Origin: Armatimonadota bacterium
Lineage (GTDB): Bacteria > Armatimonadota > Fimbriimonadia > Fimbriimonadales > Fimbriimonadaceae
Reading direction: 5' to 3'
Length of the DNA: 64,000 nt
Assembly (NCBI GenBank): GCA_037138755.1
Contig: JBAXHT010000002.1
Span: 186,001 to 250,000, forward strand
Part shown: piece by piece, positions 590 to 22,843 of the stretch
How positions within the stretch are numbered: position 1 is the stretch's first letter
How the letters are laid out: each line of letters begins with the position of its first letter
Notes under the pieces: model-generated
Database searches by the model: none
What the model saw: only the letters and a program-made list of their open reading frames with translations
What the model was told of the DNA's origin: nothing
Position numbers and translations under genes: made by a program

Positions 590-2440
590 ATGCTCTCCGC
601 CGCATTAGTGGCCGCGTCTGCGGCGGTGATAGTGTTTGTCGACACCCCTCGCCAGATTTGGCCCGGAACTGGTGTCAACATCCAGTTCACAACTCCGCGA
701 AAAGGAGAGATGGAACTGCTTGCCAAGGGTGGATTCAAGTACACCCGCTCAGTTTTGCCTTGGGCGGAAACTGAAACTGCTCCGGGTAAGTACGATTTCT
801 CCAAGTTCGAGGGACTTCTCCGCGACCTGAAGACTAAGGGAATTCGCCAAATCTTCTGCCTGTCCGGGTCAAACCCTGCTTACCAAGCAGGCGCCCCCAC
901 GATGCCCGAAGCAAGGGCAGCCTTCGCCCGCTGGGCCGGACAAGCAGCATTGCAGTTTAAGGGAGAAGAGATTGTCTGGGAGGTGTGGAACGAACCTAAT
1001 GCAGAGCAGTCCTGGAAGCCGATCCCATCCCCAACCGACTACTCCAGTCTCGCAGTCGAAACAGCCAAAGCAATGCGGTTCATGGACCCCACTTGCCGAA
1101 TCATCGCCCCGGCCGGAGCTGGAGTTGATACCCAGTTCCTCAATTCATCGCTAACCGAAGAACTACTCAGCCTTGTCGACGGCATTTCGATTCACCCCAA
1201 CCGAATCGGCGGACCAGAGAGCCTGGTAGGTGAACTTCAGGCCATCCGAGACCTGATCGCTCGACGAGCACCAGCCGGAAGAAAGGAACTCCCGATCATC
1301 TGCACTGGCTGGGGGTACAGCACGGCCCGAGGAAAGAACACAGAAGGTCGTCAGGCAATGTACGTCACTCGGATGTGGCTACTGAACTCGGCGTTGAACA
1401 TCCCGATAACCGTTTACGACTCTTGGCAGGATAACGGTCCCAATCCCGATAATCCTGCTGACCGTCTAGGACTGGTTAGAGAAAACCTTGACCTCAAGCC
1501 ATCCTTCATCGCGGTAAAGGAAGTCATTGAAAAGTTTCGCGGCTGCACAAATTTCCGCTGGCTTCCGCAGAAAGACCCGTTGGATTGGGTCATCGTCGGA
1601 GCAGGTTCAAGCAAACTGGTCCAAGCACGTTGGTATCAGAAAGAAGCAGGTGTCAAGTTCTCGGATCTCTCCATGAAGGAGAAGAGATTCAAGACACTGT
1701 ACGCAAGTTTAACCGGCGGTCAAACCGTCGCAATTCCCAGGCCAGTAGCCACCGTCACGATTCCAAACAAGCCGATCGCCAGGTCGCTGGATGGATTGGA
1801 CTTCGCCTTTGCGCCACCGATCGACGAAGACGGCTGGTGCGTTCTTGTCCAAAAGTCAACAACCGAAACCGCCAAACTCGAATTCAAATATCAAAGATCG
1901 AACGGTGCCAACGTCACCTGTTACGCAAAGATTGACGGTCCACGAATTGTCGAACCCATCGCGACGACGGAGGAGTCACCAATGGTTTCCGTAGGAGTCA
2001 GCGGAAGTGTCAGCGAGTCGTACAAATTACAAAAGACTAGCTTCGATCCGACACGCTGGGAAGTTAAGCGAGAGGGCAAACTAACCGGCGAGCTCTTGGC
2101 TGGGCAGCGTGGCGTCTTGCTCAACTACGATGGCGGCGGTAAAGCACTTGTCGTTCCAAAGAGCCGATCTGCCATCCCTGAAGGTGCGAGGGCGCTTGTC
2201 GTTTGGGTTCGTCCAGACGGTTCAAGTAACCGACTGAAGTCTGAATATCGAGACTCAGCGGGCGAAGTTATCTCGGTTGATTTGGGTTCCATGGAGGGTC
2301 CCACCGACCGAAATGGCTGGCGAGTCTTAAAAATCCCTCTGGGAGGGAAAGGCGTAGAATGGGTTTCACTTCTTGCTGTCGAATCAGAGCGAGAGCGAAG
2401 CGGGAGCATCGAAATTGGACCCGGCGCTTACATGTTCTGA
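590..2440 (+). CDS. Clan GH-A glycoside hydrolase homologue lacking the nucleophile
   Basis: The product has 616 residues with a hydrophobic N-terminus (residues 2-17) that may be a signal peptide. Residues 30 to about 330 look like a GH39/GH5-type TIM barrel: the strand-4 acid/base motif is present (WNEPN, Glu135) and a substrate-site SIHP follows. At the expected strand-7 nucleophile motif (TEWGYS in relatives) the sequence reads TGWGYS: codon 1307-1309 is GGC, giving Gly240 instead of Glu. The C-terminal 250 residues look like beta-sandwich domains. The protein is therefore either a non-catalytic sugar binder or an enzyme using another residue. An in-frame upstream ATG at 464 was rejected because the extra 42 residues look non-coding and a TATAAT sits just before 590. 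Confidence 0.75.
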   Translation: MLSAALVAASAAVIVFVDTPRQIWPGTGVNIQFTTPRKGEMELLAKGGFKYTRSVLPWAETETAPGKYDFSKFEGLLRDLKTKGIRQIFCLSGSNPAYQAGAPTMPEARAAFARWAGQAALQFKGEEIVWEVWNEPNAEQSWKPIPSPTDYSSLAVETAKAMRFMDPTCRIIAPAGAGVDTQFLNSSLTEELLSLVDGISIHPNRIGGPESLVGELQAIRDLIARRAPAGRKELPIICTGWGYSTARGKNTEGRQAMYVTRMWLLNSALNIPITVYDSWQDNGPNPDNPADRLGLVRENLDLKPSFIAVKEVIEKFRGCTNFRWLPQKDPLDWVIVGAGSSKLVQARWYQKEAGVKFSDLSMKEKRFKTLYASLTGGQTVAIPRPVATVTIPNKPIARSLDGLDFAFAPPIDEDGWCVLVQKSTTETAKLEFKYQRSNGANVTCYAKIDGPRIVEPIATTEESPMVSVGVSGSVSESYKLQKTSFDPTRWEVKREGKLTGELLAGQRGVLLNYDGGGKALVVPKSRSAIPEGARALVVWVRPDGSSNRLKSEYRDSAGEVISVDLGSMEGPTDRNGWRVLKIPLGGKGVEWVSLLAVESERERSGSIEIGPGAYMF

Positions 2441-2454
2441 CACAATGTAAGTTG

Positions 2455-3342
2455 ATGGCAACCGCATCAACTTCTGAACTCAAAGGGCTCTCGGCGTTTC
2501 GGGCGTTCCTCGAGATGATCAAGTTTGAGCATTCGATATTCGCGTTGCCATATGCCCTGATAGGCATGATGTGGGCGACTCCTGGCTTTCCAGGGTGGCG
2601 AGTTTTCTTACTGATTCTTATTGCTATGGTGAGCTGCCGAACAGCAGCAATGACCTACAATCGAATTGCCGATTGCGATATTGACGCGAGAAACGAGCGA
2701 ACCGCGAGACGCGCAATCCCGGCTGGGTTGCTCAGCCTTCGAACGACCAACCTCTACTTTTTCGGTTCGATTGTGCTGTTCTTCATTGCCGCCGGATTGC
2801 TGAATACCGTCACATTGCTCCTTGCTCCACTCGCGATTTTTATCACGGTCTTCTATTCTCGAACGAAGCGGTTTACCTGGCTCTGCCACTTCTGGCTGGG
2901 TATGTCGCTGGGAGTTGCCCCGGCGGCGGCGTGGATTGCTGTCACCGGAAAACTCGCCATCGTTCCGATCTTGCTATTCCTAACCGTCACATTTTGGACC
3001 GCGGGGTTTGACATTATTTATGCGCTTCAGGACGAGGAGTTCGACAAAAAGAACGGCCTCTACTCGGTTCCAGCCAAGTTCGGCAAAGTGAGGGCCCTTC
3101 AAATTTCGCGAGGCTCGCACGGTGCGAGTTTGTTCTTTCTCGGCTTAGCCCTGAGCATCTATGGAGTCGGATTCGTCGGTGTCCTGGCCGGAATTTTTGC
3201 CGCGGGAATGCTGATTTATGAGCAGAGCCTGGTGAAGCCGAACGACCTCAGCAAGGTCAATATGGCGTTTTTCACGCTCAACGGGTGCATTTCGGTAGGC
3301 GTCTTCTTGCTTCTGCTCGTAGATCATTTGGTTAAACGATGA
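2455..3342 (+). CDS. UbiA-family polyprenyltransferase
   Basis: This 295-residue integral membrane protein transfers a prenyl chain to an aromatic quinone precursor. The first Asp-rich motif is clear (NRIADCDID, residues 69-77, then RTARRAIPAG), and the second appears as QDEEFD before KKNGLYSVPAKFG. About eight to nine hydrophobic helices cover the rest. The N-terminal FEHSIFALPYALIG is typical of the 4-hydroxybenzoate/MqnP-like branch, so a role in ubiquinone or, more likely in this kind of organism, futalosine-pathway menaquinone synthesis is inferred. The ATG at 2455 follows the preceding stop by 14 bases. It overlaps the next gene by ATGA. Confidence 0.85.
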   Translation: MATASTSELKGLSAFRAFLEMIKFEHSIFALPYALIGMMWATPGFPGWRVFLLILIAMVSCRTAAMTYNRIADCDIDARNERTARRAIPAGLLSLRTTNLYFFGSIVLFFIAAGLLNTVTLLLAPLAIFITVFYSRTKRFTWLCHFWLGMSLGVAPAAAWIAVTGKLAIVPILLFLTVTFWTAGFDIIYALQDEEFDKKNGLYSVPAKFGKVRALQISRGSHGASLFFLGLALSIYGVGFVGVLAGIFAAGMLIYEQSLVKPNDLSKVNMAFFTLNGCISVGVFLLLLVDHLVKR

Positions 3343-3971
3343 ACAAGAATCTTCTCGGTCGAACGAATCAAGAGTTCCCTTCGCGGTGGCTAGCCCTTGC
3401 TGCTCCCGATGGAGGATTTTCCGAGGAATCACCTTCCGACTTCGTGTCAGCAGCGCGTGACTCTGGTCTGCCGATTGACTTCTCATCTCAGCCAGCCCTG
3501 TGGGGCGGGTGCATGCGCGGGGCAGACGAAGTCATTTTGATTCAGCAGGGCACCTACCAAATCGAACGGGCGACCAGCGAGGACCATGCAACTGATCTTG
3601 TTCAGGCCCACCTCATCGAGACCCTCTCGGCAATCGGTCGTGATTGCCTTGATTTCTACTTCCTTCGCATCCGTCGAACTCTCGAAGAGTATCAGGTAAA
3701 CGGCGCACTGGCGGCCCTTGAAGCGGCGAGAGGTGAGGGGCACTTACGATTCATGGGACTGCACTCCACGGGGCACCCCCTGGCAGCCCTCGGACTTTGG
3801 CAGTTTCACGATGCGTTTGAAGTTGTGATGATTCAGGATAATGACGACGCCCGAACGACGCTGGAACCGCTCGCTGGGCAGCGGAGAGTTGGGATTGTTG
3901 GAGTCGGGCACGGTGAACCACGATTGGTCACAGTGCGCTCCAGTGAAGAAATACGCCAGGTGTCGGGGTGA
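3339..3971 (+). CDS. Aldo/keto reductase-like protein, shortened
   Basis: The product has 210 residues. Residues 90-165 resemble the middle of the aldo/keto reductase barrel: LIETLSAIGRDCLDFYFLRI corresponds to the family's SLxRLGxDxIDLYxLH strand-helix, and ALEAARGEGHLRFMGLHSTG to the ALxxLxxxGKIRxIGVSN segment. The protein is about 100 residues shorter than a typical member, and I could not identify the catalytic Asp-Tyr-Lys-His set, so activity is doubtful. It starts inside the UbiA stop codon (ATGA) and its own stop overlaps the next start (GTGA), which indicates one operon. Confidence 0.6.
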   Translation: MNKNLLGRTNQEFPSRWLALAAPDGGFSEESPSDFVSAARDSGLPIDFSSQPALWGGCMRGADEVILIQQGTYQIERATSEDHATDLVQAHLIETLSAIGRDCLDFYFLRIRRTLEEYQVNGALAALEAARGEGHLRFMGLHSTGHPLAALGLWQFHDAFEVVMIQDNDDARTTLEPLAGQRRVGIVGVGHGEPRLVTVRSSEEIRQVSG

Positions 3972-4195
3972 TTCTGTTTAAGACCGCGTTCGCGATTGCG
4001 GCGCTGGTCGTTTTGTTCGGTGGAGGATTCGTTGCAGTTCATAAGCCGTTCCGGGCGGGTCCGGCGATTGCAATTCTTGGCGCAGGCGTCCTGCTGTTAG
4101 GGGTCGCGTTTACCACCGGCTGGATTCGGTTCGCGTGCCTTGGTACGCTTCTGGTGATGTTGATTGCGTTACCGTTTTTTGGGAGGCGAAAATGA
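3968..4195 (+). CDS. Small two- to three-helix membrane protein
   Basis: This 75-residue protein is almost entirely hydrophobic, with helices around residues 5-22, 31-50 and 52-70, and ends in a basic GRRK. It begins with GTG overlapping the previous TGA and ends with an ATGA overlap into the amine oxidase gene. No family is recognised. It was kept because of the tight four-base overlaps on both sides and its membrane-protein composition. Confidence 0.55.
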   Translation: MILFKTAFAIAALVVLFGGGFVAVHKPFRAGPAIAILGAGVLLLGVAFTTGWIRFACLGTLLVMLIALPFFGRRK

Positions 4196-5481
4196 AGGTC
4201 GGAGTCGTCGGAGCGGGAGTTTCTGGCCTTCGCGTTGCTCAACTCCTTGAGGAGCAAGGTCATCGGATTTCGGTCTTCGAGGCTCGGGACCGCATTGGCG
4301 GACGGGTCTACACGACAGACCTTGGCAATGGCGCTGAATATGAGGCAGGTGGTGAGTGGCTGGATTCGGATCACCATCGTTGCCGTGCGGTGGTCGAAAA
4401 GTATTGCGGGGGGTTGGAACCCGCCGACCAGGAACCGGCACTTGCCTGCTACAAGGGTGAGATGCGCGATACAAGCGAGCTTTGGCCGGAGGCGGCGGAG
4501 GATGAGGAGCGTTTCGAGCACTCGGCGCGGGCTCTAGCAAGGCAGTTGGAACTGCCGGTTTGGAAGAACGTCGAATTTGCGAAGTACGACAGCCTCAATC
4601 TCGACTCTTTCTTAAGGCAGAACTGTCAGTCGGAGCAAGGGCAGTGGTGGCTGCGGGCGAACCTTCGGAGCGACGAGGGTGACGATATCGAGCGAATCGG
4701 TTTGCTCGGCTGGCTGGGCGGTTATGTTCACTATATCAACCGTGAGAACTTGAATCGCGGCGAGAGCGAGATGTCAGCGTTCCGGGTTCCGGGCGGGTTT
4801 TCGGGTCTGTTGCGTCATATGCGTGATAGTTTGCAGGGGCAGGTTTTTCTGGGGTGTCCATTGCAGAAGGTTGTCCAGGATTCGAGTGGGGTTGAGTTGC
4901 AGTTTGCCGATTCAGCCGAGCGGTTTGACCGAGTTGTTTTGACCTTGCCGCCGCCCTGTGCGGAACGAGTGATTTTTGAGCCGGCCCTGCCGGTCGCGAA
5001 GCGTTGCGCCCTAGAAGCCTGCGGAATGAGCCGGGCGATCAAGATTGTTTGGCGGTTCTCGCAGGCTTGGTGGCGAGACCGTGGGTTCTGTGGACGGTTA
5101 CATTGCGACGGTCCGCTGCACCAGCTTTGGGAAGGGACACGGGGGTCGGAGCCGATTCTGACGGCTTACATCTGCGGCGATCGGGCGGTGGAGTGGACGC
5201 GTCTCGGCGACCCGGTGAGCGCAGGGCTGTATGAGATCGCGCAGATGTTTCCGGAGGCTCCCGCATTTTTTGTCCAAGGCGAGTTTCACGACTGGATTAA
5301 CGATCCTTACTCACTCGGAGCATTTAGCCATCATGCACCAGGCTTTGCCTTGGACCACGCCGGGAACATTGGAACTGCCGAGGGACGGATCCACTTTGCC
5401 GGGGAGCATACGGCGACTTGGGTGGGGTTCATCGAGGGTGCGTTGGAGAGTGCGGAGCGGGTTGCGGCGGAGATTGGGTGA
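4192..5481 (+). CDS. Flavin-containing amine oxidase family protein
   Basis: This 429-residue protein has an N-terminal FAD dinucleotide-binding fold: GAGVSGLRVAQLL (residues 7-19), the Glu ending strand 2 in VFEARDRIGGRV, and near the C-terminus the flavin-contact motif FAGEHTATWVGFIEGALESAERVA. This is the layout of monoamine oxidase/phytoene-desaturase-like enzymes, which oxidise amines or related substrates. The substrate cannot be read from sequence. The ATG at 4192 has GGAGG eight bases upstream and overlaps the previous stop. It is the last gene of the UbiA run. Confidence 0.85.
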   Translation: MKVGVVGAGVSGLRVAQLLEEQGHRISVFEARDRIGGRVYTTDLGNGAEYEAGGEWLDSDHHRCRAVVEKYCGGLEPADQEPALACYKGEMRDTSELWPEAAEDEERFEHSARALARQLELPVWKNVEFAKYDSLNLDSFLRQNCQSEQGQWWLRANLRSDEGDDIERIGLLGWLGGYVHYINRENLNRGESEMSAFRVPGGFSGLLRHMRDSLQGQVFLGCPLQKVVQDSSGVELQFADSAERFDRVVLTLPPPCAERVIFEPALPVAKRCALEACGMSRAIKIVWRFSQAWWRDRGFCGRLHCDGPLHQLWEGTRGSEPILTAYICGDRAVEWTRLGDPVSAGLYEIAQMFPEAPAFFVQGEFHDWINDPYSLGAFSHHAPGFALDHAGNIGTAEGRIHFAGEHTATWVGFIEGALESAERVAAEIG

Positions 5482-8065: not shown

Positions 8066-9247
8066 GTGGAAACCAAACCTGACGCTCGTGGCCGTTTTGG
8101 CGCGTTTGGGGGGCGATTTGTGCCGGAGACACTGATGCCCGCCCTCGAACAGCTTGATGCTGAGTTCGAGAGAGCATGGCAGGATTCGGCGTTTCGGACA
8201 GAGTTTAACGATCTGCTTCGGGAGTATGTTGGTCGTCCAAACCCTTTGACTGAGGCGAAGCGGCTCTCAGAAGATACCGGCCTACACATCACGATCAAGC
8301 GGGAAGACCTAAACCACACCGGGGCGCACAAGATCAACAATGCACTTGGCCAGGCTCTGCTGGCGGTTCGGATGGGCAAGAAGCGGATCATCGCCGAGAC
8401 TGGCGCCGGACAGCACGGAGTCGCGACGGCGACTGTTTGTGCGTTGCTGGGACTCGAATGCGAGGTTTACATGGGTGAGGACGACATCGAGCGGCAGATG
8501 CTTAACGTGTTCAGGATGAAGCTGTTAGGGGCAAAAGTGAACCCGGTTTCTTCGGGTACCAAAACCTTGAAGGATGCGTTGAACGAGGCGATGCGCGATT
8601 GGGTGACCAACGTCGATTCGACCCACTACATCATCGGAACGGCGGCGGGCCCGCATCCTTACCCGTACATGGTTCGAGAGTTTCAGCGAGTGATCGGAGA
8701 TGAGGCACGGGCGCAGTATCTTGAAAGATATGGCATGACTCCCGAAGCAGTTGTGGCTTGCGTTGGCGGCGGAAGCAATGCGATTGGATTCTTCGCGGGC
8801 TTTTATGGTGACGATTCGACCCGTATGGTTGGTGTCGAGGCCGGGGGGCGTGGATTGTCCTCGGGCGCCCACGCGGCTCCGCTGACGGCGGGTTCACCGG
8901 GGGTTTTGCATGGGTCTTATAGCTATTTGATGCAAGATGATGATGGTCAAGTGATCGGAACGCACTCGGTCTCGGCGGGGCTGGATTATCCGGGCGTCGG
9001 GGCGGAGCACTCTTATCTGAAGGATTTGGGCCGGGCGGAATACGTTGCAGTGACAGACGAAGACGCACTGGATGCGCTTCAGTGGGTCGCGCATCGCGAA
9101 GGACTGATTTGTGCTTTGGAGACGGCGCATGCGTTTGCCGCTCTGCGGATTCCGGGGCTGTTTAAGCCGGGCGAGCGAGTGATTGTCAACATGTCAGGTC
9201 GTGGCGACAAGGACATGGTGACGGTGGCTGGGCTGCTGAAACTGTAG
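8066..9247 (+). CDS. trpB: Tryptophan synthase beta subunit
   Basis: This 393-residue PLP enzyme joins indole and L-serine to make L-tryptophan in the cytoplasm. The PLP lysine is Lys89 in [14 protein letters not shown], and the catalytic loop [12 protein letters not shown], the phosphate-binding GGGSNAIG and the C-terminal SGRGDKDM are all intact. Length and start (GTG) fit the family. No trpA or other trp gene is adjacent, so the alpha partner must lie elsewhere. The divergent ArsR-fold gene is its only close upstream neighbour. Confidence 0.97.
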
Positions 9248-9300
9248 TTCCAAACAAGTTCCAAACACGATTTCGCCTGAATCTCCGTAACATATCGTCT

Positions 9301-9876
9301 ATGAGATGGTTCACCACGGAAGAGCTTGATATTCAGAAGCAGAAACAGCTTGGTTTGGTGATTGTGGGTGGGCTGTGCTTTAGCGTTCTGTCGGGGTTTG
9401 GGATCTACGCGCTAGAGGCGGGGCGACTGGTGTTTACCGGCAGTGCCTCCAATCCAACTTTTCTTCAGGTGCAGAGCATGACCACGAAGGTGCTGGTTGG
9501 GATAGCGATGTCAGGGATCGTCCTTGGGGTCTGTGTTACTCTGGGCGGTTTTGTGTACGGGATCTTGGAGGACAAGAAGAAGAACCTTGGGATTCCCAGA
9601 GTTTTGGAGCGGGCACGAATTATTGCTCGGTATGGAGTGGATTTTCAGGGGAACTACGTGAATGATGAGCGGCAGTTTGAGAGCCACGACGACCTGCGGT
9701 TTTTTGTCCGGATGAAGAGTCCTGGCGAGGGTTCGCTTGAATATGAGTGCTCTCGGCGGGTGTTCGAGTTTTGTGCTGAGGGGACGGTTGGGGACGCCGA
9801 AATTCAGGGGCAGTGGATCCGGGGGTACGTCGCTTATCGGGATATGGTGGAGAGTCCGGTGGGGCAGACAATATAG
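9301..9876 (+). CDS. Hypothetical membrane protein with two helices
   Basis: The product has 191 residues with hydrophobic helices at about residues 18-36 and 61-86, followed by a 100-residue soluble C-terminal region rich in charged residues. No family is recognised. TAACAT lies seven bases before the ATG, matching the leaderless pattern. It stands alone between trpB and a convergent terminator. Confidence 0.65.
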   Translation: MRWFTTEELDIQKQKQLGLVIVGGLCFSVLSGFGIYALEAGRLVFTGSASNPTFLQVQSMTTKVLVGIAMSGIVLGVCVTLGGFVYGILEDKKKNLGIPRVLERARIIARYGVDFQGNYVNDERQFESHDDLRFFVRMKSPGEGSLEYECSRRVFEFCAEGTVGDAEIQGQWIRGYVAYRDMVESPVGQTI

Positions 9877-9880
9877 AAAA

Positions 9881-9909
9881 CAGCCCCAGTACTTCAAACA
9901 CTGGGGCTG
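9881..9909 (-). terminator. Rho-independent terminator between convergent genes
   Basis: A perfect 10-base stem (CAGCCCCAGT / ACTGGGGCTG) encloses a nine-base loop. On the minus strand it is followed by TTTT, so it ends the gene that stops at 9929. It may also stop the plus-strand gene ending at 9876. Confidence 0.8.
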
Positions 9910-9928
9910 AGATTAACTGCCGTCTTCT

Positions 9929-10471
9929 TTAGAGGCCTGGCTTGGTGCCGCCTTTGCCCTTTCCGGCTCCAGCGCCGCCCGGTCCACCAGGACCGCCGAA
10001 TCCGCCTTTCTCGCGCATCTTGGCTCGCATTTCTTTGACCATCTTCTCGTACTCAGCGTATTTTGCGTCGCCCATAGCCTTCTTCATTCCGGCTTGGTAG
10101 CCATCCATGACGGCCTTGAACTTGTCTCGCATGGCTGGGTCTGGCTTCGGTCGCTCGCCGCCAGCTGCAGGCTTGGGCATCCCCTTCATCAGGGCTTCCA
10201 TCTTGGTTTTGGTCTCTTCTTTGACCTTCTTGACGGCGTCCATTTGTGGCTTGGTGAGCTTGAGCTTGGCGAGGATTTCGCTGTCCATTCCCATCATCAT
10301 TCCTGGACCGCGGCGCATTCCTCCACCCGGACCACCTTGGCCACCTGGGCTGAGCTTTCCGCCACCGCCTTGGCCCTTCCCACCGCCGGGACCTGCACCC
10401 TGGGCGAATACGGTTACGGTTAGCGCCGACATGACGGCCAGAGCGACGAAGTTTCGGATTACGTTTTTCAT
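9929..10471 (-). CDS. Secreted Spy/LTxxQ-like protein, Gly-rich
   Basis: The 180-residue product has a signal peptide (hydrophobic core FVALAVMSALTVTVFA) followed by long Gly/Lys/Pro-rich tracts and a central helical region with LKLTKPQMDAVKKVKEETKTKM. That segment resembles the LTxxQ motif of Spy/CpxP periplasmic proteins, and the C-terminal half is Met/Lys-rich coiled helix. Function is inferred only loosely (periplasmic chaperone or stress sensor). An AGAGGA ribosome site precedes the ATG. The frame is open further upstream to 10642, but those residues lack sense. It is a neighbour and probable paralogue of the next gene. Confidence 0.75.
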   Translation of the reverse strand: MKNVIRNFVALAVMSALTVTVFAQGAGPGGGKGQGGGGKLSPGGQGGPGGGMRRGPGMMMGMDSEILAKLKLTKPQMDAVKKVKEETKTKMEALMKGMPKPAAGGERPKPDPAMRDKFKAVMDGYQAGMKKAMGDAKYAEYEKMVKEMRAKMREKGGFGGPGGPGGAGAGKGKGGTKPGL

Positions 10472-10620
10472 TTGTTCCTCTTTATCTCCCCTGTTGGAAA
10501 CTTCCCTATTGGAAATTGGATCGATGAGAGCTTCAACGATCCAACAGATTCTTAGTTCAGTGCCGTGGATTCTACTTAGAAACTTTGGGTCTTTCTGACT
10601 AATGGGGACGTGTTGGGCAG

Positions 10621-10657
10621 AAAAAAGCCCCCGCAACGGCATTCATGTCGCGAGGGC
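10621..10657 (-). terminator. Rho-independent terminator
   Basis: Reading the minus strand, an 11-base stem (GCCCTCGCGAC / GTTGCGGGGGC, with two G-T pairs) is followed immediately by TTTTTT (10621-10626). It ends the gene at 10671 and separates it from its paralogue. The rest of the 200-base gap holds only the leader of the following gene. Confidence 0.85.
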
Positions 10658-10670
10658 AAAGCGTTGACGG

Positions 10671-11126
10671 TTAGTTTCCGCCGTCCTTCTTATCTTTGGC
10701 TTTTTTCGCCAAAGCCTTCATCCCTTTTTCATAGTCTTCGTACTGGACCGGGGTGAGAATCTCCTTCAGACCCTTCTTGTAGTCCTCGACGACTTCTTTG
10801 ACTTTCCCGCGCAGCGCTGCTTTGTCGTCGCCCTTGGTCTTACCCTTCATCAGGTCCTTGAGTTTGGCTTCGGTCTCGCTCTTCAGCTTCTTGACGCCAT
10901 CTTTTTGCTCGGCGGTGAGGTTGAGCTTTTCGAGGACTTCAACGTCTTTCTTGAGGAGCATCATCGGATCAGCCTTTCCGGCTTTGCCTTGCTTACCTTT
11001 CTTTGCTCCGCCTTGGGCCGGAGGGGTGCTCTGGCTTCCGGTTGTTCCAGCGGCCTGGGCATACGCGGTGACGGTTGCCCCTGCGAACAGGGCGGCGACG
11101 ATGAGGGTTTTGAGAGACTTCTTCAT
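10671..11126 (-). CDS. Secreted Spy/LTxxQ-like protein, Lys-rich
   Basis: The 151-residue product has a signal peptide (TLIVAALFAGATVTAYAQA), a low-complexity Gly/Lys linker, then a helical domain containing EKLNLTAEQKDGVKKLKSET, a clear LTxxQ motif as in Spy/CpxP proteins. The C-terminal YEDYEKGMKALAKKAKDKKDG parallels the end of the neighbouring paralogue (KYAEYEKMVKEM). The pair is separated by a strong terminator, so the two are probably transcribed separately despite a shared origin. A periplasmic location is inferred. Confidence 0.75.
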   Translation of the reverse strand: MKKSLKTLIVAALFAGATVTAYAQAAGTTGSQSTPPAQGGAKKGKQGKAGKADPMMLLKKDVEVLEKLNLTAEQKDGVKKLKSETEAKLKDLMKGKTKGDDKAALRGKVKEVVEDYKKGLKEILTPVQYEDYEKGMKALAKKAKDKKDGGN

Positions 11127-14728: not shown

Positions 14729-15475
14729 TTAGGTGCCGCTGGTTCCGAATGCCAGAGACTCCATGAGATGGCTTCGTGCTTTCAGCGGAGCCTCGCAGAT
14801 GTTGAGCCAGAATGGCTGAAGGGCATTAAGCGTCTCATCTACAAACTTGAGTCCAGGAGGAGGCTCATCCAGTCCGACAAGCGCATTGAGACCATAAAGA
14901 ACTTCCGCCCGGACAATGAAACGGTCTGAGTATTCACCGGCTACCTCGCGGCAGATATAGCCGCCTGCCTGGGGCGACACCATCGCTTCGGCTTCCTTCA
15001 CCTCCACCCCGCTTAAGACACAGGAGGCGAAGCTTGGAAGGAATCCGGTTTCGGCAAGAAGTGCGACTTCCGCCCAAGCCAAAGCGACTTTGGGCTTGGG
15101 GTGCTTCTCGATGGCGCCAAGAGCCTTGAAGCAGAGCTCATAGACTTCCTCGATCGGGTCTTCGTAGGGTGCAACATACGAAACAATCTCTGCCCATGCT
15201 AACGCGAGCGTGAGCCGCTCGTAGTCCTGTCGCAATCCGCGAAACGCGGCAATTGGCTGGGCTTGCTGGATGAACTTCTGGTGCCGACCATTGGCGAAGG
15301 TGAGCTGAGCTACAGAAAGCGGTTCACTCACCGAGCGAAGTCGCGAAGTCGGCTTGCGGGCGCCCTTTGCCACCAAGTCGATCTTGCCAAGTTCCCGCGT
15401 AAAGCAAACGAGACGCCGGTCAGATTCACCGGCGTCTCGTCGTCTCAGCACAATGGCTTCGACCGTGTGCTCCAT
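14729..15475 (-). CDS. recO: DNA repair protein RecO
   Basis: The 248-residue protein loads RecA in the RecFOR recombination pathway by helping remove single-strand binding protein. The N-terminal OB fold is clear: EAIVLRRRDAGESDRRLVCFTRELGKIDLVAKGARKPTSRL. The helical C-terminal half has the usual YELCFKAL and FLPSFASCVLSG segments. The zinc site is degraded, with one Cys left at each of the two CxxC positions. The start overlaps the stop of the preceding membrane protein gene by one base, tying this housekeeping gene to the uncharacterised membrane operon. Confidence 0.88.
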   Translation of the reverse strand: MEHTVEAIVLRRRDAGESDRRLVCFTRELGKIDLVAKGARKPTSRLRSVSEPLSVAQLTFANGRHQKFIQQAQPIAAFRGLRQDYERLTLALAWAEIVSYVAPYEDPIEEVYELCFKALGAIEKHPKPKVALAWAEVALLAETGFLPSFASCVLSGVEVKEAEAMVSPQAGGYICREVAGEYSDRFIVRAEVLYGLNALVGLDEPPPGLKFVDETLNALQPFWLNICEAPLKARSHLMESLAFGTSGT

Positions 15476-16221
15476 TACATTCCGATATGCAGGATTCGTT
15501 TCATCAAGAACTCGTCCCAGATGAAGTACATCCGGTCGATAACCAGCGAGAACCGCATCATAACCGTGCTTCCGAAGATCGCGCCAAAGCCGATCATCAG
15601 CAGGTACCGACCCGCCACGTTGAAGTTCTTCAGGGCCTTGTTCTTCACTTCAAAGCTAAACAGGAAGTAGCTGAGAACCGAAAGCAGCGTGAAAACAAAC
15701 AGCGCGTTGGAGATCGCCTGCGACCAAGTGATCGTTACTGCCGCGAGCTCCGCAGGAGCGTCCGAGCGAACGATGAACTTATCGAAGGACGTTGGGATGA
15801 CTGGAAGCATTCCCTGCTTCATTTGCGGGCCGTACACGGTCCAGAACGATTGGATTTGCTGACCAGACCAAATTCCAAGAAGGATTCCCATGGGGATCTT
15901 CGCCATCCAGTTGTGCTTCTTTGTGAAGACCATGTATCCCATGGCTCCGATTGGCACTAGCAAGATGTACGCCCAGCGACCTGGCTCGGTGACGGCCCCA
16001 GTTGTTTCAACAACACCTGTGAGCTTGTCCCACCAGATTTCGCGGAGCGACTCGGTCCACACCGCCACCGCAGACCACCCGGCTGCAAGGCCGAGGAAGA
16101 TGTGCTCGAACACACGGTAGAACTTGTTCTCTTTGTAGAGAACGCTTAGGAGACCGATGGTCGCCAGAACGCCGGCTCCGGCGGCGATTGTCCTGTAGAT
16201 TTCTAACTGCTCTGGCTTCAT
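15475..16221 (-). CDS. Polytopic membrane protein of the DUF6754 gene block
   Basis: The 248-residue protein has about seven hydrophobic helices (around residues 8-27, 36-55, 83-104, 108-125, 168-190, 205-230) with short loops and a Trp-rich loop near residues 50-70. No characterised family is recognised. The start overlaps the stop of the gene at 16218 by four bases and its stop overlaps the start of recO. It is the fourth member of a block of overlapping genes for envelope proteins and probably a subunit of the same complex. Confidence 0.7.
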   Translation of the reverse strand: MKPEQLEIYRTIAAGAGVLATIGLLSVLYKENKFYRVFEHIFLGLAAGWSAVAVWTESLREIWWDKLTGVVETTGAVTEPGRWAYILLVPIGAMGYMVFTKKHNWMAKIPMGILLGIWSGQQIQSFWTVYGPQMKQGMLPVIPTSFDKFIVRSDAPAELAAVTITWSQAISNALFVFTLLSVLSYFLFSFEVKNKALKNFNVAGRYLLMIGFGAIFGSTVMMRFSLVIDRMYFIWDEFLMKRILHIGM

Positions 16222-17159
16222 GCGTTCCCCTTTTGCTTCTTTCGAGCCGAGATCATTTCGTAGTTACCGATTCCAATCATGATGATCATGAGCAGAAGCG
16301 CAACGTGGAGGGTCGGATAGTACTTGGTGCCTTGCCCGACGCTGACGCCAGGCAGTGGAGCGATTTCTCCTTTGACCAACTCGGACGATACTGCGGTGAC
16401 GCCGTTGGGATCTTTGACATTAACTCCCTTCTCCATCATCTGCTCCATATCGAAGACACCTTTGAGTCCACCGATGAAGCCCTTGATTTGCTTGGAGTTG
16501 TAGAAGACCTGGGTTTCGGGAACCATGACGCCGGTGACCGCGAACATGAGTGGAACGTTTTTCGCGCTTATGAACTGGACGTGGAAGTCAGTGGTCTTGG
16601 AGGCGGTGCAGTCGATGACGAGATCGAAGTCGCTGACGCTCTTGATCTTCTCCAGCACCGGGCTTTTGAATATCTGCTCCTGAACACCTTTGGTGTCGTT
16701 TTCTCTTCTCGAACCGAAGGCGGTTCGGATGTCCTGCGCAACGGCATTGATCGCAACATCAGAGTTTGGATAGTAGCCAGCGCTCACCCACTGGGTCCAG
16801 CGTTGGTACTTTTCTTCTTTGTTCGCTGTCCGCTCGGCGTTCACTTCGGCGATGACGTCAAGTGCTGCCCGAGGAGCTTGAGGGTCGGCGGTACTCCAGA
16901 TGACGAACTTGACATTTTTTCGCATCAGGGTCCGCAGAATCGCTTTCATGTGACCCTTGCTTTCGCCCCGGGTTGAACCCGTCCAGTCGCTTCCGAGCAG
17001 GACAACGTCACCCTCTTTCAAAGCGGACAGAGTTTTGTAGAAGTCAACCGAAGGATCGCTTGGCTTATTCGGGATCGGAATCTTAAAGAACAGCGGAATC
17101 GAGCAGCACGCAATGAGCAGCGCATAGATGACGAACTTAGGAATGCCGCCTTTTTTCAT
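16218..17159 (-). CDS. Bitopic membrane protein with a large extracytoplasmic domain (DUF6754 block)
   Basis: The 313-residue protein has one helix at each end (about residues 9-25 and 284-302), and both flanks are basic, so the 250-residue middle is predicted to lie outside the cytoplasm. That region shows alternating strands and helices (EGDVVLLGSDWTGSTRG, NVKFVIWSTADPQAPRAALDVIAEV, FDLVIDCTASKTTDF), suggesting a Rossmann-like alpha/beta fold. I recognise no family or catalytic motif. Four-base overlaps with both neighbours imply translational coupling. Confidence 0.7.
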   Translation of the reverse strand: MKKGGIPKFVIYALLIACCSIPLFFKIPIPNKPSDPSVDFYKTLSALKEGDVVLLGSDWTGSTRGESKGHMKAILRTLMRKNVKFVIWSTADPQAPRAALDVIAEVNAERTANKEEKYQRWTQWVSAGYYPNSDVAINAVAQDIRTAFGSRRENDTKGVQEQIFKSPVLEKIKSVSDFDLVIDCTASKTTDFHVQFISAKNVPLMFAVTGVMVPETQVFYNSKQIKGFIGGLKGVFDMEQMMEKGVNVKDPNGVTAVSSELVKGEIAPLPGVSVGQGTKYYPTLHVALLLMIIMIGIGNYEMISARKKQKGNA

Positions 17160-18055
17160 GCCTTACCTCCTTTTTCGAGGCCGAGCCAGATTCGGAGGGC
17201 CATCGAGATGGTCCCAAGTCCGATTCCGAACTTGATTCCGGTGATCGCCGGAGTTTGGAAGGTGTTTTTGAGCCACCCTGCAACCTCCGTGATCTTGAAA
17301 TTCATCAAGAAATCTGCGGATGCTGTCTTCTCTGTTCCTGCCATGGCCACTACTTTGTCGTCCCAGGCTCCGGCAACAACTCCCATCAAGGAGAGGATCA
17401 CCAGTAGAGCAGTTCCGAGAAGGATGGTCGCTTCTACCGAGCGAGCTCGGAAGGCTCGGTAGGCCGCCGAGAGAATGAAGAACGCGATGATTGAGAACAT
17501 CGCTGCATCCATCTGTTGAAGGAGTCCGTCGAACAAGAAGTCACGGATCATATTGACCGTATGCCAATTAGCGGGATCGTCGAAGTCGACCGCCTTCTGG
17601 TTTTGGCGAACCATGAAGTCCGCATAACCGAAGGTGATCATGCTGAACATCGCGACCAAAAGGATTACGCTGAATGCCCAGTCCTTCTTCTTCCGTGCGA
17701 TGTTCATGAGGTGAATCCTCAGCAAGCTAAAGATTCCTAGCCCAAGTAGGAACGCAGCGATGATCTGGACGAAGCTTGAGACAACTCCAAATGATTGCTG
17801 GAGGAACGAGCCGACTGACTCAACTCCATTTGCCGGAATCTCCGTTTTGGGGTCGAAGTTGATTGGCTTTGGCCAGTAGGTGTACGCGACCATGAAGCCG
17901 CCACTCAGGAAGGTCACGAGCCAGACTAGCGGACGGCGAGCCTGGATCGGGGTTTGCATCACCGCGAGGAAGAGGATGATCCCGAGGATCAGTCCGCCTC
18001 CGATGAACATTTTCAGGTCGCCCTGGGGGTTACGTGCCCATATTGTGTCGTTCAT
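17156..18055 (-). CDS. Polytopic membrane protein of the DUF6754 block
   Basis: The 299-residue protein has about seven hydrophobic segments (near residues 17-35, 43-60, 88-110, 128-146, 184-200, 212-232, 272-290). A long loop between helices 2 and 3 carries FDPKTEIPANGVESVGSF, and another after helix 4 is charged. No characterised homologue is recognised. It overlaps both neighbours by four bases. Together with the gene at 15475 it supplies two multi-helix subunits to the putative complex. Confidence 0.7.
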   Translation of the reverse strand: MNDTIWARNPQGDLKMFIGGGLILGIILFLAVMQTPIQARRPLVWLVTFLSGGFMVAYTYWPKPINFDPKTEIPANGVESVGSFLQQSFGVVSSFVQIIAAFLLGLGIFSLLRIHLMNIARKKKDWAFSVILLVAMFSMITFGYADFMVRQNQKAVDFDDPANWHTVNMIRDFLFDGLLQQMDAAMFSIIAFFILSAAYRAFRARSVEATILLGTALLVILSLMGVVAGAWDDKVVAMAGTEKTASADFLMNFKITEVAGWLKNTFQTPAITGIKFGIGLGTISMALRIWLGLEKGGKA

Positions 18056-19053
18056 TTCGTTTCGGCCTCCTTGCCTGGTTCGGGCGGGGCCTTCTCGCGC
18101 TTCATGTCGAGGTCTTTCGGTGGCTTGTCAGCCTTGATCAGTCGCGAGACAGAGAAGGTGGCCTTCTGCTCGTCGGCAAGGGCACCGAGTTGCTTTGCAA
18201 GCTCTTCCGGGTTGCTCTTCTGGGCGTTATAAATTTCTTCAGTTTTAGCCGCCAGAGATCGTTGTTGGAATGATGCGTTGACGCAGCCCAAAGCGATGAA
18301 GCCGATCGCGACCATCTTTGACCAGTCCTGCCCAACGAGCGAGCCAACCATAATGGGGTCCCGAGTGAGATAAGCCGATGCAGCGTAGAACTCATCGCCA
18401 ATGAGAACGTAGTCGCAAGCGGCGATGAAGAACGGAGTTTGGGTGGCTTCAGTAGATGAAGCGACTTGAATCGCGCCAATCGAGTTCGCGGTTTCGGCGA
18501 AGATCAGCGACTCAGCGTAGAATTCGCCCAGGAAAAAGGCGGCGGCAGTTTGCTCGCGGTGGATGATTCCAGAGACACCGGCCGCGAAGGCGAACTGGCG
18601 ATCGGAGATGAAGCGGACGGAATCTGGATCGAATCTCTCGGGGTAGCCCTCGGATTGGTAGGTGTCGCGGATGACTTCTTGCGCCAAGGTGAACATCGAC
18701 GCCGAGTAGGCGCACATGATGATCGGGTTACTGAACCGGGCGGCAGTTTTGGCGACGTGGGCACAGATGTTGATCGCCTGAACCGCGGTTGCGTTGACTG
18801 GATCAGATAAGCCGGGAACCATGAGAACCGGGCGTCCCATTTCTGTAGCGCGACCGACGGCCTCATCAATCGCGTTGAGACCCGAGATGCGGCGGATGAA
18901 AAGGCTTTGCCCTTTCCCGGCCCGCTTCACGTTGAACACGATGAATACGATAATCATCAGGGTGAAGAGCAGTCCAAACCACCCTACGTCCCAATAGTTC
19001 GCACCCAGTAGCTGGCTATCCAGCGACCAGGCTCCTAACTGTTTTTCTGGCAT
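18052..19053 (-). CDS. DUF6754-type membrane protein
   Basis: The 333-residue protein has an N-terminal helix (residues 25-42), a large soluble region, a second hydrophobic segment (about residues 262-282) and a charged, Lys/Glu/Pro-rich tail. The soluble part contains GLNAIDEAVGRATEMGRPVLMVPGLSD and DRQFAFAAGVSGIIHREQTAAAFFLGEFYAESLI, which I associate from memory with the uncharacterised DUF6754 family. A search should confirm that name. No enzyme motif is visible. It is the largest conserved marker of the block and overlaps genes on both sides. Confidence 0.65.
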   Translation of the reverse strand: MPEKQLGAWSLDSQLLGANYWDVGWFGLLFTLMIIVFIVFNVKRAGKGQSLFIRRISGLNAIDEAVGRATEMGRPVLMVPGLSDPVNATAVQAINICAHVAKTAARFSNPIIMCAYSASMFTLAQEVIRDTYQSEGYPERFDPDSVRFISDRQFAFAAGVSGIIHREQTAAAFFLGEFYAESLIFAETANSIGAIQVASSTEATQTPFFIAACDYVLIGDEFYAASAYLTRDPIMVGSLVGQDWSKMVAIGFIALGCVNASFQQRSLAAKTEEIYNAQKSNPEELAKQLGALADEQKATFSVSRLIKADKPPKDLDMKREKAPPEPGKEAETK

Positions 19054-19358
19054 GAAGTCTCCAATAACTGCGGCTCACTATCCGGAATTTCTTCCAGGAT
19101 ACAGATGAGACGTTCGACATTATCCCGCTTTCTCAGCAAATTACTATATTGATTCACGAAATCGAAGCCTAAAAATGGAACCAACATCGGTGCGCTCACC
19201 ATCGTCAGGTGGGCCATAACGTTGGAAATTGGCTTGTGCATCTCGAAAAAGAGGATCGCGGGGGCTTCGAGTTTGCGCTTACGAATCTCTCCTGCAGCTT
19301 TCTGCAGAAGTTCCTCGGTTTGCTCCTCGCTGAGCTCATCCTCCCAAAAATCGAACAT
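19035..19358 (-). CDS. Small acidic soluble protein of the DUF6754 block
   Basis: The 107-residue product, starting MFDFWEDELSEEQTEE, is acidic at the N-terminus and helical throughout. No family is recognised. The frame is open upstream to 19496, but those residues overlap the previous gene and look like shadow; the ATG at 19358 is preferred. It overlaps the preceding gene by 23 bases and the DUF6754-type gene by 19, so it is translated from the same message. Confidence 0.6.
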   Translation of the reverse strand: MFDFWEDELSEEQTEELLQKAAGEIRKRKLEAPAILFFEMHKPISNVMAHLTMVSAPMLVPFLGFDFVNQYSNLLRKRDNVERLICILEEIPDSEPQLLETSCQKNS

Positions 19359-19746
19359 CTTTGCCTGTATGAGAACGGATGATTTCCATAACCTGTTCCC
19401 GGTCGACAGTGTCGTCGAAGACCAATCGGACTCCTCGCGTCGCGTCGAGCCTAGATTCTGACTCAAACGGGGACAGTTGTACCGCGTTTTCTTCAACTTT
19501 CACGCTTTTCACCTTATCCCAGGTGATCGTGCTGAATCCGGCGGTCGCTCCGACTTCGGAGACTTCGCACTTTTTGCCGACCGTGTATTCAAATATGATG
19601 GGCGCTAAGAACCCCATCGCAAGCACCGCGAGAAGAGGGACGCGCATGATGAAGCCGGCGAGTACCGCTCCGAAAGCGACCGCAATGATCACTGCGGTGC
19701 GCTGTGGCGTCACTTCCGTAGATTTCACTTTCCATTTGGTCGTCAT
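19336..19746 (-). CDS. Small membrane protein with PH-like C-terminus (DUF6754 block)
   Basis: The 136-residue protein has two adjacent helices (about residues 16-34 and 37-53) and a cytosolic-looking C-terminal part with FSTITWDKVKSVKVEENAVQLSPF and later RLVFDDTVDREQVMEIIRSHT. That arrangement, two helices followed by a small beta domain, resembles bacterial PH-domain or YcxB-like proteins, but the match is by pattern only. It precedes the rest of the block with overlaps. Confidence 0.6.
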   Translation of the reverse strand: MTTKWKVKSTEVTPQRTAVIIAVAFGAVLAGFIMRVPLLAVLAMGFLAPIIFEYTVGKKCEVSEVGATAGFSTITWDKVKSVKVEENAVQLSPFESESRLDATRGVRLVFDDTVDREQVMEIIRSHTGKDVRFLGG

Positions 19747-19752
19747 TCGACA

Positions 19753-20124
19753 TTAGTTTAGCGGCTGCTTACAACCGGGTTGAGATTGATATGGCAGGAC
19801 GTGCTGGTAACAGCGCAAGTCCTCCCTGCGCTGAATTGGCGAGGGCAATGTGAGGGCCCAGCAGGCCAACAACACGCCACCAAGAAAAACTGCCCCGCCC
19901 ACTCGCTTTCGGAATGTCCTCTCGGACGCGACCAGCTTCACCGCCTCTTCAGCCTTTGGGAACACATAGCTCATCAGAGGGACAAACCAGAGCGCCAGGT
20001 ACCCAAGGCCAATGGGAAAGATGAGGCATCCACCCTGAGCATCCCAGTTCCATGTCAGCATTGAGAGGCAAAACGTGCAAACCAACGCTCCTACAATTGC
20101 CACCAGGATCGCGGCCCTCATCAT
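19753..20124 (-). CDS. Hypothetical small membrane protein
   Basis: The roughly 123-residue protein starts at tandem ATG codons (20124 or 20121) and has three hydrophobic helices (near residues 4-24, 32-55, 78-96) and several Cys residues near the C-terminus. No family is recognised. A TAGAAT sits at 20130-20135, five to eight bases upstream, so transcription of the whole minus-strand run may begin here without a leader. It ends six bases before the next gene. Confidence 0.6.
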   Translation of the reverse strand: MMRAAILVAIVGALVCTFCLSMLTWNWDAQGGCLIFPIGLGYLALWFVPLMSYVFPKAEEAVKLVASERTFRKRVGGAVFLGGVLLACWALTLPSPIQRREDLRCYQHVLPYQSQPGCKQPLN

Positions 20125-20183: not shown

Positions 20184-20933
20184 ATGGTGCTCTGCGCTGC
20201 TCTACTGCTTTACCCCGCCAAAACACTGTTTCGCGATGACTTTTACACTTACACCGAACGCGAGTGGGCTTATGCAGATTGGAAGCTGGGGCGGACGCAG
20301 TTTGGGTTGAAACCGGAGTGCCGGAATGGAGTGATGATCCTTAGGCACGAGACTTACAATCCGAAGGCTCCCGGAGAGACGTTCCTTGGAACCGAGCTTT
20401 ACACCAAGCCGAACTTCACGCTTGAAACCGGGCTTCAGATCACGGCGAAGGTTCGGGTTAAGAATCCACCGCCGGGGATGGTGGCTTCGATTTTCACTTA
20501 CTCGACCGACAAGCTCGGGTCGGACGAGATTGACTTTGAATTCCTCACCACCCAGACCAACAAAGCCAAAGGCGACCACCCCGTCCTCGTCACCAACTGG
20601 AACGATTGGGACGAAAAGAAGGAGCTTTATGGGAACAAGATCAATCACTCGCCGGAGACGGTGACTCCGAAAGGGTTGAACACGGCGGATTGGAACATGT
20701 ACACCATCCGCTGGTACCCGGATCACACGGATTGGCTGGTAAACGGAACCCTGGTTCGCACGAGCAAGGACGCCGTTCCCAACGCACCAACGCCCATCCG
20801 ATTCAATTTCTGGGCAGCGGCGAAGTCGTGGACGGAGGCGTACTCGGCGGAGTATCAACCGACTGCCGATCCGTCCAAGAACCAGGTTTGTACCTACGAG
20901 ATCGACTATGTTGAGGTCAAGCGGCTTCCGTAG
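20184..20933 (+). CDS. Glycoside hydrolase family 16 protein
   Basis: The 249-residue product (250 from 20181) begins with a short hydrophobic segment that may export it. The family's catalytic ExDxxE signature appears as DEIDFEFLTT around residues 114-123, with nucleophile and acid/base Glu both present, and YTIRWYPDHTDWLVNGTLV follows as in other GH16 jelly rolls. The family cleaves beta-1,3/1,4-glucans, agar, carrageenan or xyloglucan; the substrate is not resolved here. The C-terminus ends in YEIDYVEVKRLP, the usual last strand. It overlaps the convergent aquaporin gene by 17 bases. Confidence 0.9.
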   Translation: MVLCAALLLYPAKTLFRDDFYTYTEREWAYADWKLGRTQFGLKPECRNGVMILRHETYNPKAPGETFLGTELYTKPNFTLETGLQITAKVRVKNPPPGMVASIFTYSTDKLGSDEIDFEFLTTQTNKAKGDHPVLVTNWNDWDEKKELYGNKINHSPETVTPKGLNTADWNMYTIRWYPDHTDWLVNGTLVRTSKDAVPNAPTPIRFNFWAAAKSWTEAYSAEYQPTADPSKNQVCTYEIDYVEVKRLP

Positions 20934-21549
20934 AGAGCACTTTTGACTCGAGGAGCCAGGCCAACATCATGCCAACTGGAGGTCCAACCAGATACACCCA
21001 AAGGGTTCCGTAAGTCGCCGAACCACCGACGAGATCCGGCCCGAGGGAACGAGCAGAGTTCATCGAGCCTCCGGTGATGTTTCCACCCATCATGACGAGC
21101 AACACCACTGTGAGCCCGATCACCAACGGAGCAAACGAGTTCTCTTTGCGGATCACCGCGAAGATGACAGCCATGAGAATGGCCGAAAGGACGGTCTCGG
21201 TGCCAACGTTTCGAATTGCCTGATCCGGGGCCGCCGGGACGTGAGTTCCGAATGCCCCACCAAAGAGGAGCAGACCCAGCAGTCTGGCGGCTAGGCCGCC
21301 GAGAAATTGAGCCGCCATGTAAGGAATCGCATCCTTCTTGTCATGCTTGCCACTTAGAGTGAGCGCAAGCGTTACGGCCGGATTGAACTGGGCACCCGAG
21401 GTCGGGCCAAAGATGTAGATCATCGCTGTCACCGCGAGTCCGGAGACCCAGGCGGCGATGGCGAGATCGGTCTTTGCTGCCGACGCCATGACGGGAGCAA
21501 AGACGATTCCAAACGTCCCGAGGAACTCGGCAACGAGCTTTCTGTTCAA
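20917..21549 (-). CDS. Aquaporin-family channel of the ars operon (AqpS-like)
   Basis: The 210-residue MIP-family channel has six helices and two half-helix loops. The first loop motif is intact (GAQFNPAVTL); the second reads GGSMNSARSLGP, with NSA replacing the usual NPA. The gene overlaps arsC by four bases at the end of an arsR-arsM-arsC run. In Sinorhizobium meliloti an aquaglyceroporin in the same position (AqpS) lets arsenite leave the cell down its gradient after ArsC reduces arsenate, so the same role is inferred. No ArsB or Acr3 pump is present in this operon. Confidence 0.85.
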   Translation of the reverse strand: MNRKLVAEFLGTFGIVFAPVMASAAKTDLAIAAWVSGLAVTAMIYIFGPTSGAQFNPAVTLALTLSGKHDKKDAIPYMAAQFLGGLAARLLGLLLFGGAFGTHVPAAPDQAIRNVGTETVLSAILMAVIFAVIRKENSFAPLVIGLTVVLLVMMGGNITGGSMNSARSLGPDLVGGSATYGTLWVYLVGPPVGMMLAWLLESKVLSTEAA

Positions 21550-21950
21550 CCCATCTCCTCCAGGAGTTTCACCATGTGTCCTCGAATCTGGTCACGGATC
21601 ACGCGAACAGTCTCGATCCCCTGTCCGGCGGGGTCATCGAGACCCCAATCTTCGGTGAGGATGAACTTGGCGGGACATGCGGCGGCATCGACGCCGCAAC
21701 CCATTGAGATGATTTTGTCCGCACCATCGACCATGTCTTGGGTCATCAGCTTCGGATGCTGCCCTTCCATGCTGATTCCGAGTTCCGCCATGGCTTCGAC
21801 GGCCATTGGGTTGAGCTGCTTTCCACCGACAGTTCCGGCGGATTCGCCCTTGATGTCAAGACCCCGAGCTTTGGCCTCATGATTCACGAAGGCCTCAGCC
21901 ATTTGAGAACGACCTGCGTTATGGACGCAGAGGAAGATGACGGTCTTCAT
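21546..21950 (-). CDS. arsC: Arsenate reductase, thioredoxin-coupled type
   Basis: The 134-residue protein has the low-molecular-weight phosphatase fold. It reduces arsenate to arsenite using a three-cysteine relay. All three are visible: Cys8 in the loop CVHNAGRSQ, and Cys85 and Cys92 in MGCGVDAAACPA. The family's DWGLDDPAGQG Asp loop is also present. The in-frame ATG at 21959 adds three residues, but 21950 gives the standard MKTVIFLCV opening and a four-base overlap with arsM. Its product arsenite is the substrate for the flanking ArsM and channel. Confidence 0.94.
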   Translation of the reverse strand: MKTVIFLCVHNAGRSQMAEAFVNHEAKARGLDIKGESAGTVGGKQLNPMAVEAMAELGISMEGQHPKLMTQDMVDGADKIISMGCGVDAAACPAKFILTEDWGLDDPAGQGIETVRVIRDQIRGHMVKLLEEMG

Positions 21951-22843
21951 TTGCAGCACTCCGTTCCGCAGCAGGCTCCCTCTTTCGGCTTAGATGCGCG
22001 GATGAAGGCTCCCATGATCCGACCATCGAGGTTCGACTTTTCGTCGGCGGAAAGGGCGCTGACCTCTGGCGAAGTGCAGGTCGTGGCCTCAAGGTCGGCG
22101 AAGGTGTAGCGGCGAGTCGGTTCGATCGATGCATTCTCAAATCCAGCGTTCGCGAGCTTTCCGAGATACTCGCTGTACTCCATAGCTCCGGCGACGCAGC
22201 CAATGAAAGCCTCCATGTCAGCCCGAACTGCAGGAGGAAGTTCGCCCTCAACGACAACGTCGGAAACAGCGAAGCGTCCACCGGGCTTGAGGACGCGGAA
22301 TGCTTCGCGAAGGACGGCGTCTTTGTCGCTTGACAGGTTGATGACGCAGTTCGAGATGATGACGTCGACCGAGTTGTTTGGAAGGGGGATCGATTCGATG
22401 TGACCTTTGAGGAACGAGACGTTGGTGATTCCGCTTTCCGCCTTGTTTCGCTCGGCAAGAGCGAGCATTTCGTCGGTCATATCCAGACCGAAAGCAAACC
22501 CAGTTGGCCCGACTCGGCGAGCAGAAAGGAGAACATCGATCCCTCCCCCAGAGCCGAGGTCGAGGACGGTCTCGCCTTCGCTGAGCGAGGCGAGGGCAGT
22601 GGGGTTTCCACAGCCAAGCGAAGCGAGGAGAGCCGCTTCCGGGATGTCGCCTGCTTCGGATTCACTGTAGAGGTTGCCGGTGATGACATCTCCGCCGCAG
22701 CAGCTATCGTTGCCGCCTCCGGTGTTTCCGCCGCAGCAGGCGGCACCCTGGCCGTTGAGGACGGTGAGCGCGGCGGCGCCGTACTTCTCGCGAACGATTT
22801 CGCGTACGTCTTCTCGGTCGATGAGTCTTGTGTTTTCGTTCAT
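21947..22843 (-). CDS. arsM: Arsenite S-adenosylmethionine methyltransferase
   Basis: The 298-residue enzyme methylates arsenite, usually to volatile or excretable methylarsenicals. The SAM site is plain ([23 protein letters not shown]), followed by [16 protein letters not shown] with a conserved arsenic-binding Cys and FIGCVAGAM with another. The N-terminal region holds two CCGG motifs in a Gly/Asn-rich stretch (residues 35-52), and the C-terminus ends with ACCGTECCK, extra Cys pairs that could hold arsenic. It follows arsR by four bases and overlaps arsC. Confidence 0.93.

Follow-up and report, generated by a model that had tools for sequence, protein, structure and literature searches.

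A conserved DUF6754-type operon of Armatimonadota as the candidate membrane half of an undescribed eight-component envelope system

ASKHA proteins of the GlmL branch are known or suspected remodelling factors, and relatives of GlmL have been proposed to serve B12 enzymes. Protein G of the system described here is like GlmL/MutL in its Pfam model and its ASKHA motifs, but is unlike them in its sub-cut-off NCBIfam scores, its extra length, the lack of a mutase neighbour and its membrane-complex partner. Protein H shares with RnfC and NqrA a short barrel-sandwich segment only, its middle domain and KOW-like end being different. ECF transporters are comparable in manner of working only, in that a cytosolic energising pair, which we take to be G and H in the present case, is apparently shared by several membrane units; their ATPase is of the ABC type whereas G is an ASKHA protein, and no sequence relation was found. 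The RCK domain of MthK and the SIS proteins GmhA and MurQ belong to the same general class of Rossmann-like alpha/beta sandwich as protein C, but with low TM-scores against C and no sequence relation. C itself belongs to DUF6754 (PF20539), a Pfam entry that names no function. Searches of the literature, mostly of non-subscription papers, returned no description of DUF6754, PF20539 or the eight-gene set, which may appear under another name, and searches on PF13941 and GlmL returned no description of the system.

Gene layout, protein families and predicted folds

The locus is a minus-strand block in a 64,000-nt stretch (the window) of contig JBAXHT010000002.1 of an Armatimonadota bacterium, and its genes were labelled A to F. 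Gene A (19336..19746) encodes a two-helix membrane hairpin with a C-terminal soluble domain and has homologues in 55 loci, and gene B (19035..19358) encodes a small acidic protein with one hydrophobic segment and has homologues in 64 loci. Gene C (18052..19053) encodes the DUF6754 protein, composed of an N-out helix, a cytosolic Rossmann-like domain and a second helix. Gene D (17156..18055) encodes a polytopic protein of ~7 helices here and fewer in other phyla, gene E (16218..17159) a membrane-anchored external Rossmann-like domain with a helix at each end, and gene F (15475..16221) a polytopic protein of ~5-6 helices. Downstream lies recO (14729-15475). Overlaps calculated from the coordinates are 23 bases for A/B, 19 for B/C, 4 each for C/D, D/E and E/F, and 1 for F/recO, at position 15475. 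The first-pass annotation had described at least six genes running in one direction, each overlapping its neighbour, and all six ORFs were found in that arrangement; its count of four junctions with overlaps of at most four bases is correct once F/recO is counted beside C/D, D/E and E/F, and the protein types it gave also stand (D and F polytopic, E with a large external alpha/beta domain and here two anchors, C of DUF6754 type, A two-helix, B acidic). Its statement that the block leads into recO describes this locus accurately but is no general trait, the adjacency being confined to close relatives (10 loci). Its extension of the block to 20124 was too long: the small hydrophobic ORF at 19753-20124 (minus strand), directly upstream of A, had no homologue in any fetched locus, including L052, a closely related locus whose A-F are 79-98% identical to those here, so the conserved block was taken as 15475-19746. 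This ORF is probably lineage-specific or no gene. A-F are real genes, with homologues of all six in the same order in relatives and homologues in other phyla at 26-48% mean identity.

C matched PF20539 at E 6e-93, with 311 bits against a Pfam gathering cut-off of 27. None of A, B, D, E or F scored over any Pfam or NCBIfam cut-off; A showed a weak, below-cut-off resemblance to DUF5673 (E 0.013). Topology was predicted from averaged hydropathy and the positive-inside rule, by which the N-terminus of C lies outside and its large domain is cytosolic, D has ~7 helices with positive loops inside, and E has both ends inside and an alpha/beta domain of ~250 residues outside. D carries a conserved cytosolic motif (SAAYRAFRxR) and F a conserved C-terminal part (FGAxFGxTVMxR). 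In many other phyla C is preceded by a signal peptide and an FN3-like ectodomain.

AlphaFold models of E (pLDDT 90) and C (pLDDT 89) were confident, and both are Rossmann-like alpha/beta domains. Foldseek searches of the two models against the PDB gave nothing at E 0.001 or better, and the external domain of E showed no recognisable solute-binding fold. The top match of C was the MthK RCK gating domain, which was weak (E 3.9e-3, TM 0.35 by target); its other weak matches were further Rossmannoids, with SIS domains lower down. When the alignment was read on the AlphaFold models, the invariant residues of C (G81, G176, Q196, A198, G219, E221) and E (E66, T209) lay close to strand C-termini, the usual ligand-binding region of Rossmannoids, which makes these sites candidate ligand pockets. 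The C and E models are alike in having six alternating strands and helices ahead of the last membrane helix; the profile comparison gave a probability under 3%, and we do not claim that they are diverged paralogues of opposite topology. A comparison of D with F gave no support for paralogy.

The proteins were also compared with known systems. No T2SSE-type ATPase of type II/IV secretion or pilus systems was matched in A-H by Pfam, no ABC ATPase occurs in the conserved set, and neither D nor F matched any transporter family in Pfam or NCBIfam. For Rnf/Nqr, the full rnfC and nqrA models scored far below cut-off for H, and no RnfA/D/E or NqrB/D/E family was matched in D, E or F. For an RCK-gated channel, the weak structural match of C was the sole finding, D and F being without a family match. 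C, E, G and H had no PDB sequence matches. The first-pass annotation had named clear matches to a transporter or secretion system already known as evidence against a new system; Pfam, NCBIfam, PDB sequence and Foldseek searches found none.

Conservation, linkage and loss

PF20539 was found above cut-off in 231/255 Armatimonadota genomes, most of the genomes used being metagenome bins. The order A-B-C-D-E-F is kept in loci across Armatimonadota, some deep branches carrying insertions (G and H, or others). Among 194 good Armatimonadota genomes (≥90% complete, ≤5% contaminated), 181 carried both C and E and the remaining 13 carried neither (p 1.7e-20), so that the two agree in 194/194 and, where present, lie close together. 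Singly occurring homologues, which would have told against the proposed grouping, were not the case, C and E being present or absent together. Two extra E matches without C in genome G104 were found at small-contig ends, immediately next to an F, and were rejected as standalone occurrences. The p-values given here and below ignore shared ancestry; the losses nonetheless fall in at least six families of Armatimonadota (f1, f6, f8, f10, f13 and f41). Loss of the system through pilus loss was rejected, as PF00437 was kept in 15/15 tested genomes without the system, and so was loss through outer-membrane loss, as PF01103 (Omp85/BamA) was present in 28/28 genomes with or without it. No plasmid location of the system was found.

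For the comparison across phyla, one genome was used per species and the best 80 of 578 loci were kept. Within these 80, C-D-E-F were nearly always linked, over ~16 phyla, neighbours among the four lay within 500 bases in 98-100% of cases, and the genes sometimes occurred as two or three tandem C-D-E-F sets. The gene order recurs outside the phylum, with holders that include WOR-3/Stahlbacteria, Zixibacteria, Latescibacteria, Eisenbacteria, Edwardsbacteria and Gemmatimonadota. In the C tree Armatimonadota are split (100/100) from ~15 other groups, although the labels of some metagenome bins may be wrong, and this tree would fit a system that is mainly vertically inherited. No further family beyond A-H was conserved beside the locus across phyla, nor did any client or enzyme recur across phyla as a neighbour of A-F, or of G and H in Armatimonadota; a kinase, cyclase or regulator recurring beside the locus was likewise not found across phyla. 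In seven cases (L048, L088, L093, L100, L110, L114 and L120), mostly of the non-Armatimonadota group, the locus has a glycine dehydrogenase (GcvPA-like) gene close by. In three other loci (L034, at 8466-10864, L035 and L046) a two-gene form was observed, in which DUF6754 is followed by a D with an extra domain of ~280 residues near its N-terminus; this domain matches no family, and no E or F lies beside the pair.

The components G and H

Two genes of ~600 and ~375 codons were found inside the operon in many phyla, in L049, L086, L088, L093, L100, L120, L128 and other loci. The first, G, is a GlmL/MutL-type ASKHA ATPase: it covered the whole Pfam MutL model (PF13941) with 425 bits against a cut-off of 27, and its nucleotide motifs DCGSTTTK (phosphate-1), DIGGATTD (phosphate-2) and GSGGVLSH (adenosine; GSGGxLSH) are intact. 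G fell below every cut-off of the curated NCBIfam GlmL models, which include TIGR01319, NF040745 and NF040744 (scores against cut-offs of 166.4/204, 229.6/475 and 220.4/600 bits), and is ~120 residues longer than the Pfam MutL match. No cobalamin-dependent mutase recurred beside the main G. By our own reading, a distant paralogue resembling GlmL, with aminomutase-like genes nearby, was seen in L161 alone. The second, H, contains a barrel-sandwich segment resembling NqrA_N and RnfC_N (1.5e-5 and 2.9e-5 in one member), and from our own reading of the sequence begins with a barrel-sandwich domain, differs in its middle domain and ends in a KOW-like segment.

The genome of the window carries both genes, at separate sites beyond the window: G at C2:58091-59965 (59% identity to the L093 copy) and H at C1:1372255-1373364 (51% identity to the copy of another phylum). 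H is missing in 17/255 and G in 19/255 genomes, almost the same genomes as those without C and E, and in good genomes co-occurrence with C or E was significant for H (p 1.9e-13) and for G (p 4.8e-12; Fisher tests), as was that of G with H (p 2.8e-16). This co-loss of unlinked G and H with C and E is the strongest evidence for G, H and A-F as one system. In other phyla, 27 of 30 genomes with C have an orthologue-grade G (64-85% identity), two more have a divergent G, and 28 have H, with G and H often away from C-D-E-F. The six genes had been put forward as the set; A-F very probably belong together, but as a set they are incomplete, with G and H, elsewhere in the genome, as further members.

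Variant arrangements were also seen. L158 and L159 carry a divergent G behind the F of a C-D-E-F set, the former encoding a protein with a MutL/GlmL ATPase region beside F (1861-4449), and G-H fusions located away from C-D-E-F occur in L155 (7803-10724), L157 (8511-11228) and L160 (5197-8169). The large MutL/GlmL proteins of L155, L157, L158 and L160 are ~860-990 residues long and possibly represent a second ATPase branch.

Constraint drops from the cytosol outwards: identity between phyla is highest for G (~60-70%) and H (50-59%), followed by C (47%), D (38%), F (35%) and E (26%). In tandem copies E is the most different, at 47% vs 61% for C. Several genomes with two or three C-D-E-F sets have one G and one H (G259, G260, G263 and G281), as if one motor served several membrane units whose external E diverges most.

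Proposed mechanism and competing explanations

On the best reading, an inner-membrane complex of eight components, undescribed, ancient and passed on mostly by vertical descent, would have A-F as its membrane half. We are highly confident that A-H are one functional system; that this system transports or gates is a real possibility that stops short of being probable. The first-pass proposal of an undescribed envelope system is supported, and no known transporter, secretion, pilus, Rnf/Nqr or outer-membrane system fits. A conserved cytosolic ATPase pair combined with several membrane units of variable outside gives the look of an energised transporter or exporter, which is the preferred reading. 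We infer a physical complex, ATP use and substrate movement as follows. G would attach to the membrane unit via H and split ATP, and this splitting would drive conformational changes in C-D-E-F; E on the outside and C on the inside may bind ligand or substrate, each in a pocket where the strands of its Rossmann-like domain end, and D and F may form a path through the membrane or a lever. As output, we consider it most likely that a small molecule or polymer would be transported, or let through a gate, across the inner membrane. A more far-reaching reading, which we regard as rather doubtful, is a new kind of ancient, near-core machine whose power would come from an ASKHA (actin/Hsp70-fold) ATPase instead of an ABC, AAA or rotary one and would serve one or several interchangeable trans-membrane units, with substrate carried between external and cytosolic Rossmann-like domains. 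Weighed against a transporter are the location of G and H away from A-F here, D and F without a transporter family and E without a recognisable solute-binding fold, and these observations would also be accounted for by a role in sensing or assembly.

A two-sided sensory or regulatory complex, in which E takes an external ligand, C a cytosolic one in the manner of RCK or SIS domains, and G-H act as an ATP-dependent switch relaying the signal or gating an ion route through D/F, is an explanation that we regard as rather doubtful and still worth keeping in view. It accords with the presence of Rossmann-like domains on either side of the membrane, with the RCK gating domain as best Foldseek match of C and SIS further down, and with the FN3-like ectodomains on C in many phyla, but the RCK match is weak and of a kind common to many Rossmannoids, no GxGxxG motif or pore signature was seen, and signalling partners of the types searched for do not recur by the locus. 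The placement of G in Pfam MutL/GlmL could instead suggest envelope assembly or repair, with G a chaperone-type ATPase and the membrane unit handling or maturing a client envelope protein or glycan; this seems unlikely, given the scores of G under all GlmL model cut-offs, the lack of a client gene linked to the locus across phyla, and the Omp85 proteins and type II/IV ATPases still held by genomes without the system.

The NqrA_N/RnfC_N-like segment of H would fit a redox or ion-pumping complex akin to Rnf/Nqr with H as its NqrA/RnfC-like soluble subunit, but one small domain alone matches, neither the full H models nor the families expected of D, E and F were recovered, and we judge this highly improbable. 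Finally, gene order by itself proves no complex, and A-F could be a conserved operon of unrelated envelope genes with no common function; against this, linkage extends over ~16 phyla, C and E are missing from exactly the same tested genomes and C-D-E-F are duplicated in tandem as a unit. The co-loss of the unlinked G and H contradicts chance neighbourhood, leaving it scarcely credible.

The system occurs in ~91% of the surveyed Armatimonadota genomes and across many little-known phyla, its soluble parts are conserved like many housekeeping proteins, and it is probably a widespread bacterial machine overlooked so far; DUF6754 was found in 0/14 well-known control genomes, which would explain why nobody had met the system. 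If it is true that the ATPase drives the membrane unit, this would be a new way to power a membrane machine, and with eight defined parts the question is directly testable in cultured Armatimonadota. Two small (1.5 Mb), near-complete genomes of the window's own family (G113 and G114) have lost C, E, G and H and can serve as natural deletion strains for comparison.

Elsewhere in the window, at 20917-22843 (minus strand), nearly overlapping genes encode an ArsM-like Cys-rich methyltransferase, a protein with a low-molecular-weight phosphatase fold (ArsC-like arsenate reductase) and an aquaporin (PF00230), likely an arsenic operon. The aquaglyceroporin in place of an ArsB pump resembles the AqpS arrangement of Sinorhizobium.
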